Assembly (NCBI GenBank): GCA_017451385.1
Contig: JAFSPS010000010.1
Span: forward strand, 1 to 64,000
Length of the DNA: 64,000 nucleotides
Reading direction: 5' to 3'
Origin: Bacteroidales bacterium
GTDB taxonomy: Bacteria; Bacteroidota; Bacteroidia; Bacteroidales; P3
Shown here: piece after piece, positions 33,965-41,204 of the stretch
Layout of the letters: each line of letters opens with the position of its first letter
Numbering within the stretch: position 1 is the first letter of the stretch
Notes under the pieces: model-generated
Databases searched by the model: none
Told to the model about the DNA's origin: nothing
What the model saw: only the letters and a program-made list of their open reading frames with translations
Program-made: the position numbers and the translations under genes

Positions 33965-35104
33965 ATGGCAAATACGAATTTAGCAAATGCGAAGACGGCA
34001 AAGAACGATGAGTTCTATACGCAATATCCCGATATTCAAAAGGAGATAAACGCCTATCTGGACTATGACCCGAATGTATTTCGTGGCAAGACGGTGCTCC
34101 TGCCTTGCGATGACCCAGAGTGGAGCAACTTCACTAAGTTCTTTGCTCAGAACTTCGAACTGCTGGGATTGAAGAAACTGATTTCCACCAGTTATGCACC
34201 CGAAAGCAAGAAATACAAGTTGCCGTATCAGCCGACACTCTTTGAGACAGAGCAGCCGCAATTCGATGCCGACAAGAGCAAGACGCATGGTAAGATATTT
34301 GTGCTTGAACGTGATGTGACGGGCGACAATCGTATCAACATCGAAGATTTGCAATGGCAGTATCTGGAGGGTGACGGTGATTTCCGTAGCAAGGAAATAC
34401 GCAAACTGCGTGACGAGGCAGACATCATTGTAACTAATCCGCCGTTCTCGCTTTTTCGTGAGTTTGTACTTTGGCTAATGGAAACCCATAAACAGTTTAT
34501 CATCATCGGCAATATGAATGCTGTCACCTACAAAGAAATATTCCCTTTGATAAAGAATAACGTGATATGGCTCGGTGCGACTAACTTCAACACAGGAATG
34601 TATTTCCGTGTGCCTGAAGACTTCGTATATGCTCCATCATATAAGTTTGAAACGGAACAAGACGGAGTTAAGGTTAATCGCGTGCCTGGTTGCTGCTGGT
34701 TTACAAATATTGACCACGGACGTCGACATCATCCTTTACGCTTAATGACGATGGCAGAGAACTTCAAGCATAGTAAGCACAAGGAAATACGAGGACGGAA
34801 GAACTACATCCATTATGAGAATTATGATGCAATAGAAATCCCATATACTGATGCAATTCCATCTGACTATGATGGAGCGATGGGCTTGCCAAAATCATTC
34901 CTTGACAAATACTGCCCTGAGCAATTTGAAATCATTGGTATTGCAGAAGGAGATTCTGGCAAAGAGTTAGGACTAAAGCCTTTTCCGCCCGAATTGAAGA
35001 AACTAAATCCCAGTCTAAGACAAGGACAACTATATTATATGGAAGACGGCTATCCAGTGAAGCCATACGCAAGAATCCTAATCCGCAAAAAGCAACAAGC
35101 ATGA
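33965..35104 (+). CDS. EcoRI-family adenine-specific DNA methyltransferase
   Basis: 379 aa. The N6-adenine catalytic motif NPPF is at about 158-161, preceded by a beta strand (ADIIV). Early residues contain LPCDDPEWSNFTKFF (about 46-60), a hallmark of the M.EcoRI-type family (Pfam EcoRI_methylase), with a later target-recognition region rich in aromatic and His residues (CCWFTNIDHGRRHHP). Expected to methylate adenine in a short palindrome. There is no EcoRI-like endonuclease gene next to it; instead the stop overlaps (ATGA) the start of a DUF262-HNH gene, so the two are translationally coupled and probably act together as a restriction-modification-like unit. Confidence 0.9.
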   Translation: MANTNLANAKTAKNDEFYTQYPDIQKEINAYLDYDPNVFRGKTVLLPCDDPEWSNFTKFFAQNFELLGLKKLISTSYAPESKKYKLPYQPTLFETEQPQFDADKSKTHGKIFVLERDVTGDNRINIEDLQWQYLEGDGDFRSKEIRKLRDEADIIVTNPPFSLFREFVLWLMETHKQFIIIGNMNAVTYKEIFPLIKNNVIWLGATNFNTGMYFRVPEDFVYAPSYKFETEQDGVKVNRVPGCCWFTNIDHGRRHHPLRLMTMAENFKHSKHKEIRGRKNYIHYENYDAIEIPYTDAIPSDYDGAMGLPKSFLDKYCPEQFEIIGIAEGDSGKELGLKPFPPELKKLNPSLRQGQLYYMEDGYPVKPYARILIRKKQQA

Positions 35105-36285
35105 AGACAGAATTGAAGATTTATACCGTTGAACAGATTTGCGACGGCTTTGAGTATAACGAACTGGAGGGCAAGGGTCTTTATGGCTTGGCTGGCCAGT
35201 TGACCATTCAGCCAGAATACCAGCGTAACTACATCTATGCCGATGGCAAGCGCGATGTAGCAGTTATTGAATCTGTGCTGAAAGGCTATCCGCTTGGGTT
35301 AATATACTTCAACCGCAACAAAGACTATCAGTCACCTCAAACTGAATTGGAAGTGCTTGACGGTCAGCAACGCATCACATCGCTTGGTCGTTTCATTAAG
35401 AACAAGTTTGCCGTTAAAATTAATGACTTGGAGCAAATCTTTGACGGTCTTAATGAAGGGCTACAACAGAAGATTCTGCAAACGAAGTTGCTGGTTTATA
35501 TTTGCGAAGGCGAGGGCGAACATGCCGAGGAGGAAATCAAAGAATGGTTTAAGACAATTAACATTGCTGGTGTTCCGCTTAATCATCAAGAGGAATTGAA
35601 TGCCGTATTCAGCGGACCATTTGTTACACTATGCAAAGCAGAGTTCAGCAACTCAAAAAACGCCAATATTCAGCGTTGGGAGAGCTATGTGAAAGGACCA
35701 GCCAACCGGCAGCAGTTCTTAGCAACTGCTTTGGAATGGGTAAGTAAAGGAAACGTGGACGGCTATATGTCTGCCCATCGTCGTGACGAGGACATCAACG
35801 AAATAAAGACCTATTTCAACACCGTGATAGATTGGGTAGATAGCAAGTTTGATGATGTCTATGACGAAATGCAGGGATTGAATTGGGGCGAACTCTACGA
35901 GCGTTTCCACTCGCTGCCATTGAACCATACGGAACTGTCGCAAAAAGTGCGAGAGTTGATGCATGACGACTTCGTAGGAAATCGCCGTGGCGTGTTTGAG
36001 TATGTGCTTGGTGGCTGTCAAGACACAAAGCTGCTGAATATCCGCTTGTTCGACAAGCCAACCATGCGCAAAGTGTATCAGCAACAAACCGATAAGGCAA
36101 AGGCCGAGGGCATAAGCAACTGCCCCTACTGCGCCATCGGCCATGACCAGAATGCCCGCCGCATCTGGAAAATGGAAGAAATGGATGCCGACCACGTGAC
36201 TGCTTGGAGCAAGGGCGGCTCTACAGATATCGATAACTGCCAAATGTTGTGCAAGACGCATAACAGGGCGAAAGGGAACAGGTAG
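35101..36285 (+). CDS. DUF262-HNH putative NTP-dependent nuclease
   Basis: 394 aa. The N-terminal DUF262 (ParB/GmrS-like) domain has QPEYQRNYIY (38-47), the helix DVAVIESVLKGYPLGLIYF and the hallmark DGQQR (87-91), linked in related proteins to nucleotide hydrolysis. A helical middle region follows. The C-terminus is a zinc-type HNH nuclease: C341-P-Y-C344, DADHV (about 362-366), then DNCQMLCKTHNRAKGN. Known relatives (GmrSD, SspE, BrxU) restrict modified phage DNA using DUF262 plus DUF1524; here the nuclease part is HNH and the partner is an adenine methyltransferase. Role as the restriction component is inferred; target unknown. Confidence 0.88.
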   Translation: MKTELKIYTVEQICDGFEYNELEGKGLYGLAGQLTIQPEYQRNYIYADGKRDVAVIESVLKGYPLGLIYFNRNKDYQSPQTELEVLDGQQRITSLGRFIKNKFAVKINDLEQIFDGLNEGLQQKILQTKLLVYICEGEGEHAEEEIKEWFKTINIAGVPLNHQEELNAVFSGPFVTLCKAEFSNSKNANIQRWESYVKGPANRQQFLATALEWVSKGNVDGYMSAHRRDEDINEIKTYFNTVIDWVDSKFDDVYDEMQGLNWGELYERFHSLPLNHTELSQKVRELMHDDFVGNRRGVFEYVLGGCQDTKLLNIRLFDKPTMRKVYQQQTDKAKAEGISNCPYCAIGHDQNARRIWKMEEMDADHVTAWSKGGSTDIDNCQMLCKTHNRAKGNR

Positions 36286-36478: not shown

Positions 36479-39400
36479 CTATCTTGACACTACAGTCAGC
36501 GAGCTACAGTCTTCGCCTTTACGCTCGGCATGTATTTGTATGGGGATGCGCTGCGACAGATAGTTGATATGACTGATGATGCCCACGCGTTTGCCTTGCT
36601 GTTGCTGCAAGTTTTCCAATAGGTCAAGAACTCTATCTATCTCTTTCTCTCCAATAGTTCCAAAACCCTCGTCGATAAAGAGCGTATCGATGTTGAGACT
36701 TTGATTGTTAAGCGATGCCAGAGCCAAGGCCAAGGCCAATGAGACAAGGAAACTCTCGCCGCCACTCAGTGTATCAACCGGACTTTTTATGTTTTTATTG
36801 CTTTTGTCATGTAGGCATATAGTCAACGTGTCTTGCACACATTCGAGAGTATATTTGTCATCAAGGTTCTTAAGATGGTAATTGGCAGTGTTTAGAAGAT
36901 TGCCTAAAAGGTAGCCTTGTGCAATCTTCTTAAAGGCATCGCCATTGTTTGTACCAAACATCCTTTGAAGAATGTCCAGTTTGTCCAGTTCGTTTTTAAT
37001 TTGTTCTTCCTTCAGCTTCTCGCTGGCAAAACGCTTCCGGTTGTTGTCATCGGTTGTCAGTTCCTGCGTCTCCTGTCCCAACAGCCTGTTCTTTTCATCC
37101 ACATCAAATTTTATTGCCTCACTTATCTCTTTAAGGTCAGACTCCGACTGTTCCTCACATTCTTTTCGGTGCTCTTCGCCGTTATGAGTTGCAAGCTCTT
37201 CCTCTTTATTCTTTATCAAACCCTCTATTTCAATATGTTTCTCGGCCACAGTCTTATGTACTGCCATCAGTCGGTCCATCTCCTGTTTGCCAATCCGCAT
37301 TAGGGATTCCAGTCGCGTTCTATCTATCGATAGACTGCTATTTAGATAGCGGTTAATTGCATCTTGAACAATGGTTAGCTGCTGCTGTGCATCTTTCTGT
37401 TGAGCTGATAGAGCGGTGATTTGCGTAGCCAGCTCATTGAATTTGATTTCAAGTTCCTTCTTTTCTAAAGGCTCATATTGTATGTCGTTCTGCCATTCGG
37501 GATATTGCTGCAATATGCTTTCTTTGTTACGCAAAATATTGGCAATAATGGAGTCTGCTTTCTCTTTTTTATTTGTTTTTTTCTGCAGTGTTTCCACTCT
37601 ATCTTGATACTCCTTTGCCTGTTTTTTCAGGTCGTTTATAAAGCCTGCCGCATCTTTCTGCCATTCTTCCTGCCAGCGGCTTTCCTCATTCAGAAACGTG
37701 TCGGCATCTGCCATGCACGTCTTGCGCTCCTCGTTTAATCTCTCTATCTGTTCGAGATTTGCCTGTTTTTTGCTTCTGTTGTCATCGCGATAAGATGCAG
37801 CCTTCACCATATTGGACTGACACTCGCCGAGTTGTTTTTCAATGCTATTTAATCTCTCTGTCGCCTCCTGAATGGCGTTTTTCAGTTTAGATAGCTCTTC
37901 TTGTTTATTTGTTAGCTCATTGCGTTTTCTTTCACTTTCGCCAGCCAAGACATCGAGACCGTCCTCAACCTCCTTTATGTTCGAGGCTCCCTCGTCCAAT
38001 CTCAAACCGAGAGCCACGAGGTAAGCATGTGCTTTATTTATTATCCTATTCACATTAGCGTTATTAGCCGCTAATTCGTCTTTCTGCTTTTGCTGCGCTT
38101 GGCGATAGGATTCTATTATCTTGCTTGTCGCCGACACGGAGGCCTGCGCATCGTTCATCTCTTTATTGGCAGCATCTGCCGCCTTCTTTATCGGGTCTAT
38201 TATGCCAATCAGATAATCTTCGGCCTCCAATGTGCGTCCCTCTAACGATTGCCCGCACACGGGACAATACTTGCTACTATGTGCATGGATTTGCGCACGA
38301 AGGCTCCTCGCGGCATCGCCTATTCTTATGTTCACATCCTCGTATTCCGACAAACGCTCATGATAAATCTTTTCTTTCCGAATGACATCTGCCTCTTGTT
38401 CTTTAATCTGCTTCTCACAGACCTCTATCTGGCTTTCAGTATCATTTAACTGCTGGTAGTTTTTATCTCTCGACTCAATCTGCACCCTCAATGATGCTAA
38501 CTCCTGTCTGCCGCCATTGATATTTCTTTCTATCTCGTTCAGTTCCTTGTCCTTCTTTTTCAATCCCTCTTCATCTAATGCCAGTAGCTGCGCTTTCTGC
38601 TCCTCAATCTCTTTTTTTTGCGCATCCACTACCTTTTGTATATCCTCATGACGCTTTTGTTCTGCTTTTATCGCCTCTTCCAGTTGCGGAAATGCCTCAT
38701 CAAGCTCTTTATTTTTAACTTCAAGCGAAATGCGTTCAGCATCAATATTCCTTGCTCTCTCAAGCCTTGCGTCTATCGTTTGTATGTTATTGTATATCTC
38801 TTTTTTATTCTTTTCTCTTTCAAGTATTTTATTTATCTCTTCAATTTCTCTCTCCAAGTTGCTCATCCATTGCTCGGCAAAAACAATGCCCTGCATCAGG
38901 CTCTCAAAGTCATGATGCCTCTCAGCCTTCTGACTATCGTAATCATTTATCTTTCTCAATAGATTACCCTCTTCTGCAATCTTAGGTCTGATTTCGGTTG
39001 TCTCGTTCCAATCTTTTATAAGTTGCTCCTCAACCCTATAATCCGAAACCGCCATTTGTTTTTCTAACTCTTCTTTTTGGTGGCGCAACGAACTCAACAT
39101 ATTCTTGAGTTCGTTCTGTTTTTTCACATAATTGTAGTCTTTGACTGCAAGAACATAGTTATTCTGTAATTGAGAAATCTCTTTTTTCAAGGCATCAATC
39201 CCAGCTTCCAACACCTGCCGCTGCTCGTCGGTGAGGAGGACAATGCCTTGCAGTTTCGACTGTTGATTGTCATATTCTTTTCTTTTATCCGTCGTCTTGC
39301 TGGCAATACGGGCACCAACCTTAGAGTAGATATCTGTTTTTGTCAGTTTTTCGAGGATGCTGGCCTTGCCGTCATCATCTGCTTTCAAGAATTTCGTAAA

Positions 39401-39895
39401 CTCCCCTTGCGCCAGCATCGAGGTGCGGCAGAACTGGTCAAACTCAAGTCCCACAGACCCCGCGACGGCGGCATCGACATCTTTTATTTTTTCTACCGTT
39501 ATGCCGTCCTTGGTGAAAGTGCGTGTTTTCTTGCCAAAAGTACCATTCCTTGTAAGGCTGACGCCCCATGTGGCGATACATTCTTTGCCATCAATATCGT
39601 CAAATACTAATCGCACACTTGCCTCACTCGTCCCCCGTCTCAACAGGTTGCAAGGGTCTTTGGGAGCAAGATTTCTGTTCTCGCCAAAGTCAGCCTTTCC
39701 ACCGTTAGCGTTTTTAAGACGCGGCGTAGTATCGAAGAGGGCAAGGCAGATAGCGTCAAGGATGGTTGTCTTGCCAGTACCCATCTCGCCAGAGATGAGA
39801 AATACCTTGGCTTGTTGCAACGGACTCTTGGTGAAATCAATCTCTGCTTCTGCCACAGATGCTATATTCTTTATGCTTATCTTTTTTAGTTTCAT
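36479..39895 (-). CDS. sbcC: SbcC-type DNA double-strand break repair ATPase
   Basis: 1138 aa SMC-like ATPase of the SbcCD (Mre11-Rad50) nuclease. Walker A GEMGTGKTT is at about 35-43. Two long coiled coils (about 180-540 and 570-950) meet at a zinc hook C544-P-V-C547. The C-terminal ATPase half has the SGGESFLVSLALALAL signature and Walker B LFIDEGFG. It pairs with sbcD immediately upstream (52 bp gap). SbcCD opens hairpins and protein-blocked DNA ends. Normal length for the family. Confidence 0.96.
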   Translation of the reverse strand: MKLKKISIKNIASVAEAEIDFTKSPLQQAKVFLISGEMGTGKTTILDAICLALFDTTPRLKNANGGKADFGENRNLAPKDPCNLLRRGTSEASVRLVFDDIDGKECIATWGVSLTRNGTFGKKTRTFTKDGITVEKIKDVDAAVAGSVGLEFDQFCRTSMLAQGEFTKFLKADDDGKASILEKLTKTDIYSKVGARIASKTTDKRKEYDNQQSKLQGIVLLTDEQRQVLEAGIDALKKEISQLQNNYVLAVKDYNYVKKQNELKNMLSSLRHQKEELEKQMAVSDYRVEEQLIKDWNETTEIRPKIAEEGNLLRKINDYDSQKAERHHDFESLMQGIVFAEQWMSNLEREIEEINKILEREKNKKEIYNNIQTIDARLERARNIDAERISLEVKNKELDEAFPQLEEAIKAEQKRHEDIQKVVDAQKKEIEEQKAQLLALDEEGLKKKDKELNEIERNINGGRQELASLRVQIESRDKNYQQLNDTESQIEVCEKQIKEQEADVIRKEKIYHERLSEYEDVNIRIGDAARSLRAQIHAHSSKYCPVCGQSLEGRTLEAEDYLIGIIDPIKKAADAANKEMNDAQASVSATSKIIESYRQAQQKQKDELAANNANVNRIINKAHAYLVALGLRLDEGASNIKEVEDGLDVLAGESERKRNELTNKQEELSKLKNAIQEATERLNSIEKQLGECQSNMVKAASYRDDNRSKKQANLEQIERLNEERKTCMADADTFLNEESRWQEEWQKDAAGFINDLKKQAKEYQDRVETLQKKTNKKEKADSIIANILRNKESILQQYPEWQNDIQYEPLEKKELEIKFNELATQITALSAQQKDAQQQLTIVQDAINRYLNSSLSIDRTRLESLMRIGKQEMDRLMAVHKTVAEKHIEIEGLIKNKEEELATHNGEEHRKECEEQSESDLKEISEAIKFDVDEKNRLLGQETQELTTDDNNRKRFASEKLKEEQIKNELDKLDILQRMFGTNNGDAFKKIAQGYLLGNLLNTANYHLKNLDDKYTLECVQDTLTICLHDKSNKNIKSPVDTLSGGESFLVSLALALALASLNNQSLNIDTLFIDEGFGTIGEKEIDRVLDLLENLQQQQGKRVGIISHINYLSQRIPIQIHAERKGEDCSSLTVVSR

Positions 39896-39947
39896 AGCCT
39901 ATATGCGTTATAAAAATAATAAGAAGAACACAGTTGTTTAATTGTCA

Positions 39948-41204
39948 TCACTTCTCGTCATATTTCTCTCGCTCCACTTCTTCGACAATTTGAATAAGGA
40001 GGTCGGCGAGGTCGTCTGGCATCGGGTGCCCATATTTCCTCTGATAGTGCATTGTGGCTATCTCCATTGGCGACGGCATCTCTTCGGGAGAGAAATATCT
40101 TGGAGCAGAATCTTCTCCATTGCTATCCGCGGCAGAAACAGCCGTATGCTTGATTGTACAAAAGCGAGCTTGTTTGTTTTCAAAAGTTTTGTTTATAACA
40201 TTCATATAATCCGCTGGCAAAGGAGCGTCGTCAAGTACGTTGAGACGGATATAGCTCTTTTTATCATCCGGATATGCTATGGCATCAGCCATTACTTCGG
40301 CAAAGGTTTTTGGAATATTAGGAACTGTTTCCAAAGGTCGGTAATTGGCTATAGGAATATGCTCCACCTGAGGTTCTGCGCCATGTTCCATAATTGATAC
40401 CAGCGTGACGCCATGGTCTCCGGTCTCGTCAAACGACACATCTATAGGTGTACCGCAATAGCGTGCCAACGGTTTGCTGTTTGTCACGTTCTGTGCTCTG
40501 TGGATATGTCCGAGAGCCAAATAGTCATAACCGCTACCCAGACGCGATTGTGGTACGCTCTCACAGCTACCGACAATCTCTCGGTCTCCGTAATTAGAGT
40601 ACTCATGTCCACTCGTGTCGCTACCAATCAGATACAGGTGTTCTGTGAGCACCACGGGGAGATTGTTCTCATTGACTTCAGCCACACGTTCCATAAGAGC
40701 CTCATGAAAGATTTGCATACGGCTATCGGTTCTCGCAGCATTATCCGCTATAGGATAGCTTTGTTCATAGACATGCGGCATGGCGACAATAAACCCTTTC
40801 AGCACACCTTTGGCATCTCTCACCGCAATAATGTGATGGTCATAATCTATCGCTCCATTGTCTTTTTTATTAATCTCACCAATCACCACGATGTCGTTCG
40901 GATGAAGTAATGCTCCGTCATTTTCAAGCAGCATTTTGCCATCGTGGTTGCCTGCCGTCACAACGATAGGGCGTCCAGGCAGTGCCTCCTGCATTTTCTT
41001 CAAGGTGTCTATATACATCTTGCGAGCCGACTGCGGAGGTGCGCTTACGTCAAAAACATCGCCACATATCACCACTGCATCGGGCTGTTGCTCACGCACA
41101 ATTTTCACAATCTGACTCATGCAGTCTTGCTGTTCTTCGCCACGGTCGTGTTCATAGAGTCTGTGTCCAAGATGCCAGTCGCTGGTATGCAATACTTTAA
41201 GCAT
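39948..41204 (-). CDS. sbcD: SbcD-type nuclease subunit
   Basis: 418-aa calcineurin-like phosphoesterase, the nuclease of SbcCD. Metal-binding motifs in order: SDWHLGH (8-14), ICGDVFD (about 47-53), GNHDG (about 82-86), a histidine in LTEHLYL and GHIHRAQ (about 231-237). A capping domain follows. It is the first gene of the sbcD-sbcC pair; its putative -7 box overlaps the terminator of the neighbouring beta-helix gene. Confidence 0.95.
   Translation of the reverse strand: MLKVLHTSDWHLGHRLYEHDRGEEQQDCMSQIVKIVREQQPDAVVICGDVFDVSAPPQSARKMYIDTLKKMQEALPGRPIVVTAGNHDGKMLLENDGALLHPNDIVVIGEINKKDNGAIDYDHHIIAVRDAKGVLKGFIVAMPHVYEQSYPIADNAARTDSRMQIFHEALMERVAEVNENNLPVVLTEHLYLIGSDTSGHEYSNYGDREIVGSCESVPQSRLGSGYDYLALGHIHRAQNVTNSKPLARYCGTPIDVSFDETGDHGVTLVSIMEHGAEPQVEHIPIANYRPLETVPNIPKTFAEVMADAIAYPDDKKSYIRLNVLDDAPLPADYMNVINKTFENKQARFCTIKHTAVSAADSNGEDSAPRYFSPEEMPSPMEIATMHYQRKYGHPMPDDLADLLIQIVEEVEREKYDEK

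Follow-up and report, generated by a model that had tools for sequence, protein, structure and literature searches.

The window analysed here is a 64,000-nucleotide (nt) stretch of a Bacteroidales bacterium genome (assembly GCA_017451385.1, contig JAFSPS010000010.1, positions 1 to 64,000), in which two overlapping genes encode an EcoRI-family N6-adenine methyltransferase (referred to hereafter as M) and, immediately downstream, a nuclease that joins a DUF262 domain to a zinc-type HNH domain (R); coordinates are collected in Table 1. M matches the Pfam family EcoRI_methylase (PF13651) with 433.8 bits over residues 5–376 (cut-off 26.4), a whole-length match that establishes its family. The HNH and zinc motifs of R are CPYC at residues 341–344, DADHV at 362–366, Asn379, and CKTHN at 384–388. 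A preliminary description of this locus had named the two genes, their ATGA overlap, the NPPF motif of M and the DGQQR (87–91), CPYC, DADHV and N..H motifs of R, and we located all of these as claimed using the sequence and Pfam.

Table 1. Features of the M–R locus (positions in the window; aa, amino-acid residues).
Feature	Position	Strand	Basis or remark
M, EcoRI-family N6-adenine methyltransferase, 379 aa	33965..35104	+	PF13651; PADLOC MTase_II
NPPF catalytic motif of M, aa 158–161	34436..34447	+	sequence
TRD1, first hypervariable module of M, aa 205–244	34577..34696	+	22 types in 89 pairs; putative DNA-reading part
TRD2, second hypervariable module of M, aa 324–369	34934..35071	+	40 types in 89 pairs; putative DNA-reading part
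ATGA overlap, R start codon ATG / M stop codon TGA	35101..35104	+	sequence
R, DUF262-HNH nuclease, 394 aa	35101..36285	+	PF03235 + PF01844; PADLOC REase_II PDLC03418
DUF262 (GmrSD_N, ParB/Srx-type NTPase) domain of R, aa 36–170	35206..35610	+	PF03235, 73.7 bits
DGQQR motif of R, aa 87–91	35359..35373	+	each residue in 89/89 pairs
Central region of R, aa 171–340	35611..36120	+	matches no Pfam family at E 0.01
Zinc-type HNH nuclease domain of R, aa 341–394	36121..36282	+	PF01844, 38.4 bits

The same description held that R lacks DUF1524 and that no EcoRI-type endonuclease is present, and the Pfam results agree: R gave no DUF1524 match at E 0.01, the nuclease domain being PF01844 instead, and a scan of 17 proteins of the window, both flanks of the pair included, detected no EcoRI-type endonuclease. 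Nor does R match an SF2 helicase or PD-(D/E)XK domain, its only Pfam matches being to the GmrSD_N and HNH families. By analogy with GmrSD, BrxU and DndI as described in the literature, its DUF262 domain would act as a nucleoside triphosphatase (NTPase), and the central region is a candidate surface for contact with M or for dimer formation. The pair is already listed: PADLOC calls M MTase_II and files R as a Type II endonuclease by a full-length match (residues 18–393, 273 bits) to its ‘Type II restriction enzyme’ model PDLC03418 (REase_II), a model that also matches five R relatives from other phyla at 243–456 bits. No paper on such a pair was found in the literature searched (subscription journals, preprints and REBASE lay outside it). 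A PDB search with R gave weak matches only, one of them the DUF262 protein 7p9k (E 0.34), and the PDB search returned no credible relative of M.

Conservation was assessed in 89 M–R pairs. Two copies of the window's pair (L081, L083) were removed before module typing, and two loci on the same contigs as others (L084 and L085, with L045 and L051) were removed for the 89-pair tests; all four are counted in the figures for spacing and for identity along 10-residue windows, and L084 and L085 are retained in the EcoRI contrast counts and in the pairwise module examples. The NPPF columns of M are kept in 89, 88, 89 and 89 of the 89 pairs, respectively. In R, Asp364 and His365 are invariant (89/89) and Asn379 and Asn388 nearly so (88/89); each inspected DGQQR and HNH/zinc position is kept in 86–89 of the 89 pairs, with the exception of His387 (79/89, Cys in 7). 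This near-invariance of active-site residues suggests that R is kept functional.

The preliminary description had named R as the restriction partner of M and proposed a search for the same neighbour pair in other genomes; far from rarely occurring together, homologues of the two genes do so almost always. Among R homologues on genome contigs (best 80 of 91, with at most 6 kb of flanking DNA per side), a same-strand M or M fragment lies upstream of R in 75 of the 80, and in the remaining five the contig edge falls inside R; on viral contigs, M lies upstream in 75 of 79 loci, the other four being too near a contig end for a whole M (an eightieth viral locus was excluded for holding too little R). 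Linkage was also counted in 120 genomes of the same genus, 58 of which carry PF13651, and in a phylum sample of 296 genomes, taking as full-length an M of at least 271 profile positions and an R of at least 250 bits, with at most 3 kb between them. Within the genus, R lies downstream of 56 of 58 full-length Ms and M upstream of 56 of 59 full-length Rs (the window's own genes included); in the phylum sample, from which the window is excluded, 14 of 18 Ms have an R and 15 of 16 Rs have an M. Small M fragments are left out of these counts; a 57th genus R (G378) lies directly downstream of one such fragment (profile positions 285–345). These counts rule out the idea that R is an orphan Type IV enzyme lying beside M by chance.

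Seven regions holding exceptions to this linkage were inspected (G330:C2 and G330:C89, at contig ends, are not among them). Three of the exceptional Ms (G358, G169 and G343) adjoin an EcoRI-like endonuclease 68–81% identical to EcoRI (only partial in G343); a fourth, from the same genus (G360; L188 3584–7016), is followed by a cytosine methylase-like gene and a further two genes lacking an assignment, which may represent yet another, third type of partner in the M family, and for the fifth (G275) no partner is evident in the inspected region. Of the exceptional Rs, one (G373) is preceded by two small genes close to where its contig starts and the other (G437) is solitary. For two plasmid-borne Ms, from Campylobacter (L118) and Psychrobacter (L120), the annotation shows no adjacent R or EcoRI-type gene. 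EcoRI-type endonucleases and DUF262-HNH R proteins are thus alternative partners of one M family, and this alternation, together with linkage and spacing, supports M and R as restriction partners, as the preliminary description had proposed.

Plasmids of Actinomycetota, Bacillota, Pseudomonadota and Bacteroidota carry the pair, as do a Flavobacterium phage and genomes of Pelagibacteraceae and Patescibacteria. Within the at most 6 kb of DNA on each side, none of the 80 genome loci has a match to the SbcC, SbcD, cca or MORN protein of the window at E 1e-15; relatives carry these flanking genes on separate contigs, as an empty-site comparison showed. Because of this spread across phyla, plasmids and phage included, and because no genome locus shares the window's flanking genes within that distance, the pair is a mobile module, tightly linked and present in several phyla. 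The near loci are mostly metagenome-assembled; cultured or complete records (L009, L032, L057, the plasmids and the phage) share the architecture. Cultured carriers include P. ruminicola KHT3, Prevotella sp. ne3005 and Bacteroidales KHT7.

M and R lie −11 to +41 nt apart in 80 rows out of 93 (which take in the window, its two copies and the two duplicates); in the other 13 the distance exceeds 60 nt. In 12 of these 13 the gap is filled by one or two same-strand reading frames, ruling out loose association as the origin of long gaps. Eight of ten gap proteins scanned with Pfam could be named: YhcG/DUF1016 nuclease (two), Fic (two), ORF6N, Bro-N, HigB and a helix-turn-helix (HTH) protein; these genes look like toxin- or guard-type cargo, inserted into the operon repeatedly. 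Inserts lie at L001 3744–4760, L004 5235–5993, L018 5399–5986, L019 4200–5994, L058 5351–5992, L068 1352–1945 and L123 2109–2975.

Comparison of close relatives places the variation of M in two segments. In the 361 locus pairs (duplicates counted) whose Rs share 88% identity or more, the identity of M in 10-residue windows is 0.79–0.99 across residues 1–170, drops to 0.18–0.46 at residues 201–240 and to 0.22–0.50 at residues 321–370, and is 0.64–0.89 elsewhere; R windows stay at 0.73–1.00, except for an indel loop (residues 71–80) at 0.50. When the two hypervariable segments, TRD1 and TRD2, were aligned separately and typed at 60% identity, the types listed in Table 1 were found in 59 combinations among the 89 non-duplicate pairs. 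The types form discrete classes that reappear on distant backbones, and module identities are bimodal: across 350 locus pairs, drawn from 53 loci, whose Rs share at least 88% identity, TRD1 identity lies below 0.4 in 279 pairs and reaches 0.7 or more in 67. At least one module differs (<50% identity) in 331 of these pairs and both differ in 234, with the M core at least 70% identical in all 350; even where R identity is at least 0.93, modules differ in 41 of 45 pairs.

Individual comparisons illustrate the exchange. L033 and L034 have 100% identical Rs, with TRD1 70% and TRD2 30% identical; L029 and L077 (R 98.7%, M core 93%) share only 19% of TRD1 and 13% of TRD2; and L039 and L040 (R 99.5%, core 99%, TRD2 89%) differ in TRD1 (15%), nucleotide identity falling from 0.90–1.0 outside the module to 0.37–0.68 within it and returning to 0.98. 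At the nucleotide level, then, similarity is lost within modules and regained in R. On a Variovorax plasmid (L110 288–3011), two tandem Ms precede a single R, their cores 75% identical and their modules 18% (TRD1) and 11% (TRD2). The modules swap independently of each other and, among close relatives, as if randomly on the R tree. The swapping of modules in M beside a constant nuclease is a new result, one that the preliminary description had missed.

As one locus may enter several locus pairs, these pairs are not independent of one another, and tree and column tests were therefore added to the pairwise comparisons. R identity follows that of the M core (Spearman 0.90) and not that of TRD1 (0.03), and the two modules are uncorrelated (−0.01). 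Placed on an R tree of 51 near loci, TRD1 types take 31 changes, the mean after shuffling being 29.4; for TRD2 types the corresponding figures are 25 and 26.2. Of the 145 R columns that vary, none attains z 4 for TRD1 or TRD2 (maximum 3.2), whereas in the own-type control 40 of 40 TRD1 columns and 44 of 45 TRD2 columns do; a weak TRD1–TRD2 cross-association appears in 4–5 columns. The indel loop of R near residues 71–82, which we had considered as a candidate for following M specificity, is ruled out by the same test, as no R column tracks module type. Mean R identity is 0.856–0.864 with or without shared modules (pairs with M core at least 0.85).

Methyltransferases partnered by EcoRI-type endonucleases provide a natural control. 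Eight were used, from E. coli, Klebsiella (two), Leuconostoc, Rhodococcus and Bacteroidota (three); L126 (EcoRI endonuclease, with no methyltransferase annotated) and L127 (its methyltransferase annotated only as ‘DNA methyltransferase’) were set aside. On grounds of homology, we assume that the EcoRI-type enzymes of the control share the target GAATTC. Among these eight Ms mean identity is 0.62 in the core, 0.74 in TRD1 and 0.81 in TRD2, whereas among DUF262-partnered Ms it is 0.65, 0.21 and 0.19, respectively. Conservation equals or exceeds that of the core in 23 of 28 EcoRI-partnered pairs for TRD1 and 28 of 28 for TRD2, against 233 and 113 of 4095 DUF262-partnered pairs. In a quick tree of 36 Ms with the modules removed (KP2 excluded), seven EcoRI-partnered Ms form one clade (support 98), which under midpoint rooting sits among DUF262-partnered Ms (support of the neighbours 83). 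One TRD1 type of DUF262-partnered Ms (L070, L074, L076, L103 and L122) resembles by eye that of M.EcoRI and is combined with other TRD2s; the M of Apilactobacillus kunkeei likewise has an EcoRI-like TRD1. The contrast between EcoRI- and DUF262-partnered Ms speaks against the possibility that the hypervariable segments are something other than recognition modules, and TRD1 and TRD2 are accordingly treated here as the putative DNA-reading parts of M.

A nuclease with sequence recognition of its own could not persist while the target of M changed again and again; R therefore either takes its target from M, or senses methylation regardless of sequence, or else the modules are not recognition modules. 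Module swapping beside a constant R suggests the first of these, in which the cutter takes aim from the marker, and with rather better than even confidence we read the pair as a two-gene restriction-modification system in which M would supply the target for both activities. M would recognise its site through two exchangeable modules, TRD1 and TRD2, and methylate adenine in host DNA by way of its NPPF motif; R, with its predicted DUF262 NTPase and HNH nuclease, would read no sequence by itself and would act with M, most likely as an M–R complex, on the unmethylated site. Nucleotide hydrolysis by DUF262 would gate HNH cutting, so that the likeliest order, by analogy with BrxU and Type III enzymes, would be binding of M–R to an unmethylated site, nucleoside triphosphate (NTP) hydrolysis and cutting. 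A change of module in M would then shift protection and restriction together with R unaltered, as happens in the Mod/Res system of Type III and with HsdS of Type I.

Several observations weigh against this reading. The assignment of DNA reading to TRD1 and TRD2 draws on their variability and on the EcoRI contrast, and in five of the 28 EcoRI-type pairs, all involving BAC1, TRD1 falls slightly below the core. R identity retains a weak correlation with TRD2 (Spearman 0.22), and the whole R tree (77 loci) carries some signal, with 46 TRD1 changes against 50.5 shuffled and 44 TRD2 changes against 51.1. Counts over locus pairs carry the dependence noted above. R of L040 lacks the end of its HNH domain, such that the L039/L040 comparison documents an exchange and not a working R on both sides of it. 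There is no M–R fusion in the 79 viral loci, and the broken Ms described below come from metagenome assemblies, where five against two is a small difference.

The strongest competitor, although we think it unlikely, is that R resembles DndI as a sequence-blind reader of the mark, binding or nicking DNA of any sequence and being released or switched off by N6-methyladenine on self DNA through NTP hydrolysis. Sufficiently frequent methylation would then be all that is asked of M, its motif would be irrelevant and its modules would be free to drift and swap. This would explain the constancy of R and the swapping of modules equally well and has a precedent: DndI, a DUF262-HNH nuclease, cuts without needing the phosphorothioate (PT) mark and leaves PT-marked self DNA upon ATP hydrolysis (PMC11662687). 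That same source has DndI and SspE reading their mark in a fixed sequence, and tight linkage to a single M family would be unexpected if other adenine methylases could serve. Such an R should moreover be toxic without M, yet one solitary, intact R is found in a 99%-complete genome in which PF13651 has no match (G437), and five genome loci (L020, L038, L053, L067 and L069) combine a broken M with an intact R, all R motifs being intact in each.

The reverse arrangement, an intact M with a broken R, occurs in two genome loci (L040 and L056); both genes are broken in two and intact in 62, and nine loci are cut by contig ends. These counts are confined to genome loci, as several viral broken-M calls reflect alignments ending at TRD2. 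Phase-variable tracts were ruled out as the source of the M breaks, six break sites having no run of at least six A/T or at least five G/C. It is because of the solitary and broken-M loci, which suggest that R may be harmless without M, that guiding by M is favoured over sequence-blind reading; the broken Ms could be assembly errors, and we give this evidence modest weight.

It is improbable that the pair is an orthodox Type II system, with R alone recognising and cutting a fixed sequence that M methylates. PADLOC's filing, by a full-length match of R to REase_II, is of this kind, and EcoRI endonuclease partners the same M family elsewhere; the nuclease and methyltransferase genes are adjacent, as the Type II arrangement requires, but specificities that move together are not seen in the evolutionary comparison made here. 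Instead, modules of M are exchanged while R is unchanged, a single R stands beside two Ms with different modules, and it is in the EcoRI-partnered Ms that the modules are conserved; an autonomous R without a matching M would also cut its host. Module swapping thus speaks against an ordinary Type II system and in favour of M as the seat of specificity. Least probable of all is that the hypervariable segments are surfaces under pressure from phage inhibitors while M and R keep one specificity, since, although hypervariability by itself is no proof of DNA reading, both rank with the better-conserved stretches of M in those systems whose target is fixed by an EcoRI endonuclease, and their discrete types recur on distant backbones, with the M.EcoRI-like TRD1 present in DUF262-partnered Ms.

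Set against known systems, the pair shares its M family with EcoRI restriction-modification (one PADLOC model covers M.EcoRI and such Ms) but differs in its DUF262-HNH nuclease, in its gene order (M–R, as opposed to R–M in three EcoRI-type records) and in the swapping of modules that EcoRI-partnered Ms conserve. Type I HsdS has two target-recognition modules that swap independently, a likeness to M, although here the modules lie inside the methyltransferase chain and there is neither a separate S subunit nor HsdR. Type III Mod/Res likewise places a conserved nuclease gene beside a methyltransferase whose variable recognition region is flanked by conserved parts, and specificity in the methyltransferase beside a conserved nuclease is what we find, as judged by sequence evolution only. 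R differs from Res in having no helicase or PD-(D/E)XK match, and M from Mod in belonging to another methyltransferase family and in carrying two separate variable modules as opposed to one central one. In Type III systems Res must bind Mod, since Mod holds the recognition domain (PMC3311624).

The DUF262 nucleases offer a second set of comparisons. DndI and SspE (DUF262-DUF1524) share with R the DGQQR NTPase motif and an HNH-superfamily nuclease (PMC11662687 and, for SspE, PMC13251355), but there the nuclease is DUF1524, and what is read, within a fixed sequence, is phosphorothioate as opposed to N6-methyladenine. No link to phosphorothioation was found: the partner of R is an N6-adenine methyltransferase, and none of the product-annotated plasmid or phage regions around the pair names a dnd or ssp product. 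The Type IV enzymes GmrSD and BrxU have the N-terminal DUF262 with DGQQR, as does R, and in BrxU the nuclease domain can cut only after DUF262 has bound and hydrolysed nucleotide (PMC8565348). They differ in cutting modified DNA, in carrying DUF1524 where R has PF01844, and in that a need for a partner methyltransferase is not described. That R cuts the mark of its own M in a Type IV-like manner is unlikely because of the tight linkage to the methyltransferase. The preliminary description had contrasted R with known DUF262 proteins on two counts. The lack of DUF1524 holds; the contrast with enzymes acting on modified DNA is not right as it stands, DndI being already known to cut without needing the mark (PMC11662687).

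Beyond the single pair, we judge it evenly balanced whether these genes represent a separate and widespread restriction-modification class, in which a DUF262 (ParB/Srx-fold) NTPase-HNH protein that reads no sequence itself would be guided by a single-chain, two-module adenine methyltransferase and specificity would evolve as in Types I and III, without a helicase; EcoRI would then be a branch of the same M family that is paired with the other type of nuclease and whose target is therefore frozen. If guiding by M is correct, a change in the methylase alone would redirect marking as well as cutting, in a system encoded by just two compact genes (products of 379 and 394 residues), and a DUF262 NTPase, a domain so far described as reading modified cytosine or phosphorothioate, would serve methylation-based recognition of self and non-self. 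The natural difference between EcoRI- and DUF262-partnered methylases opens a direct test of which protein reads the target, and it supplies dozens of natural candidates for recognition modules in a family of enzymes familiar chiefly through GAATTC.

Some further observations concern remnants and neighbours of the pair. At L099 1207–1698, the beginning of M runs on into the C-terminal part of R in a single reading frame, as though the remainder of both genes had been lost in one deletion. The window's own genome holds a 30-codon remnant of an R C-terminus, 77% identical (G000:C46:109018–109107; L192 5019–5108), the trace of an earlier copy; a gene in the same region resembles an IS200-type transposase by eye. 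A Rhodococcus plasmid (L117 4801–6591) carries an EcoRI-type restriction-modification pair with a separate 1.8-kb DUF262 gene just downstream. In the window, the sbcC-like gene adjoining R (36479–41204) is divergent, its best same-genus protein match being 30% identical, and its product finds a match in 15 of 37 genomes, its own included.

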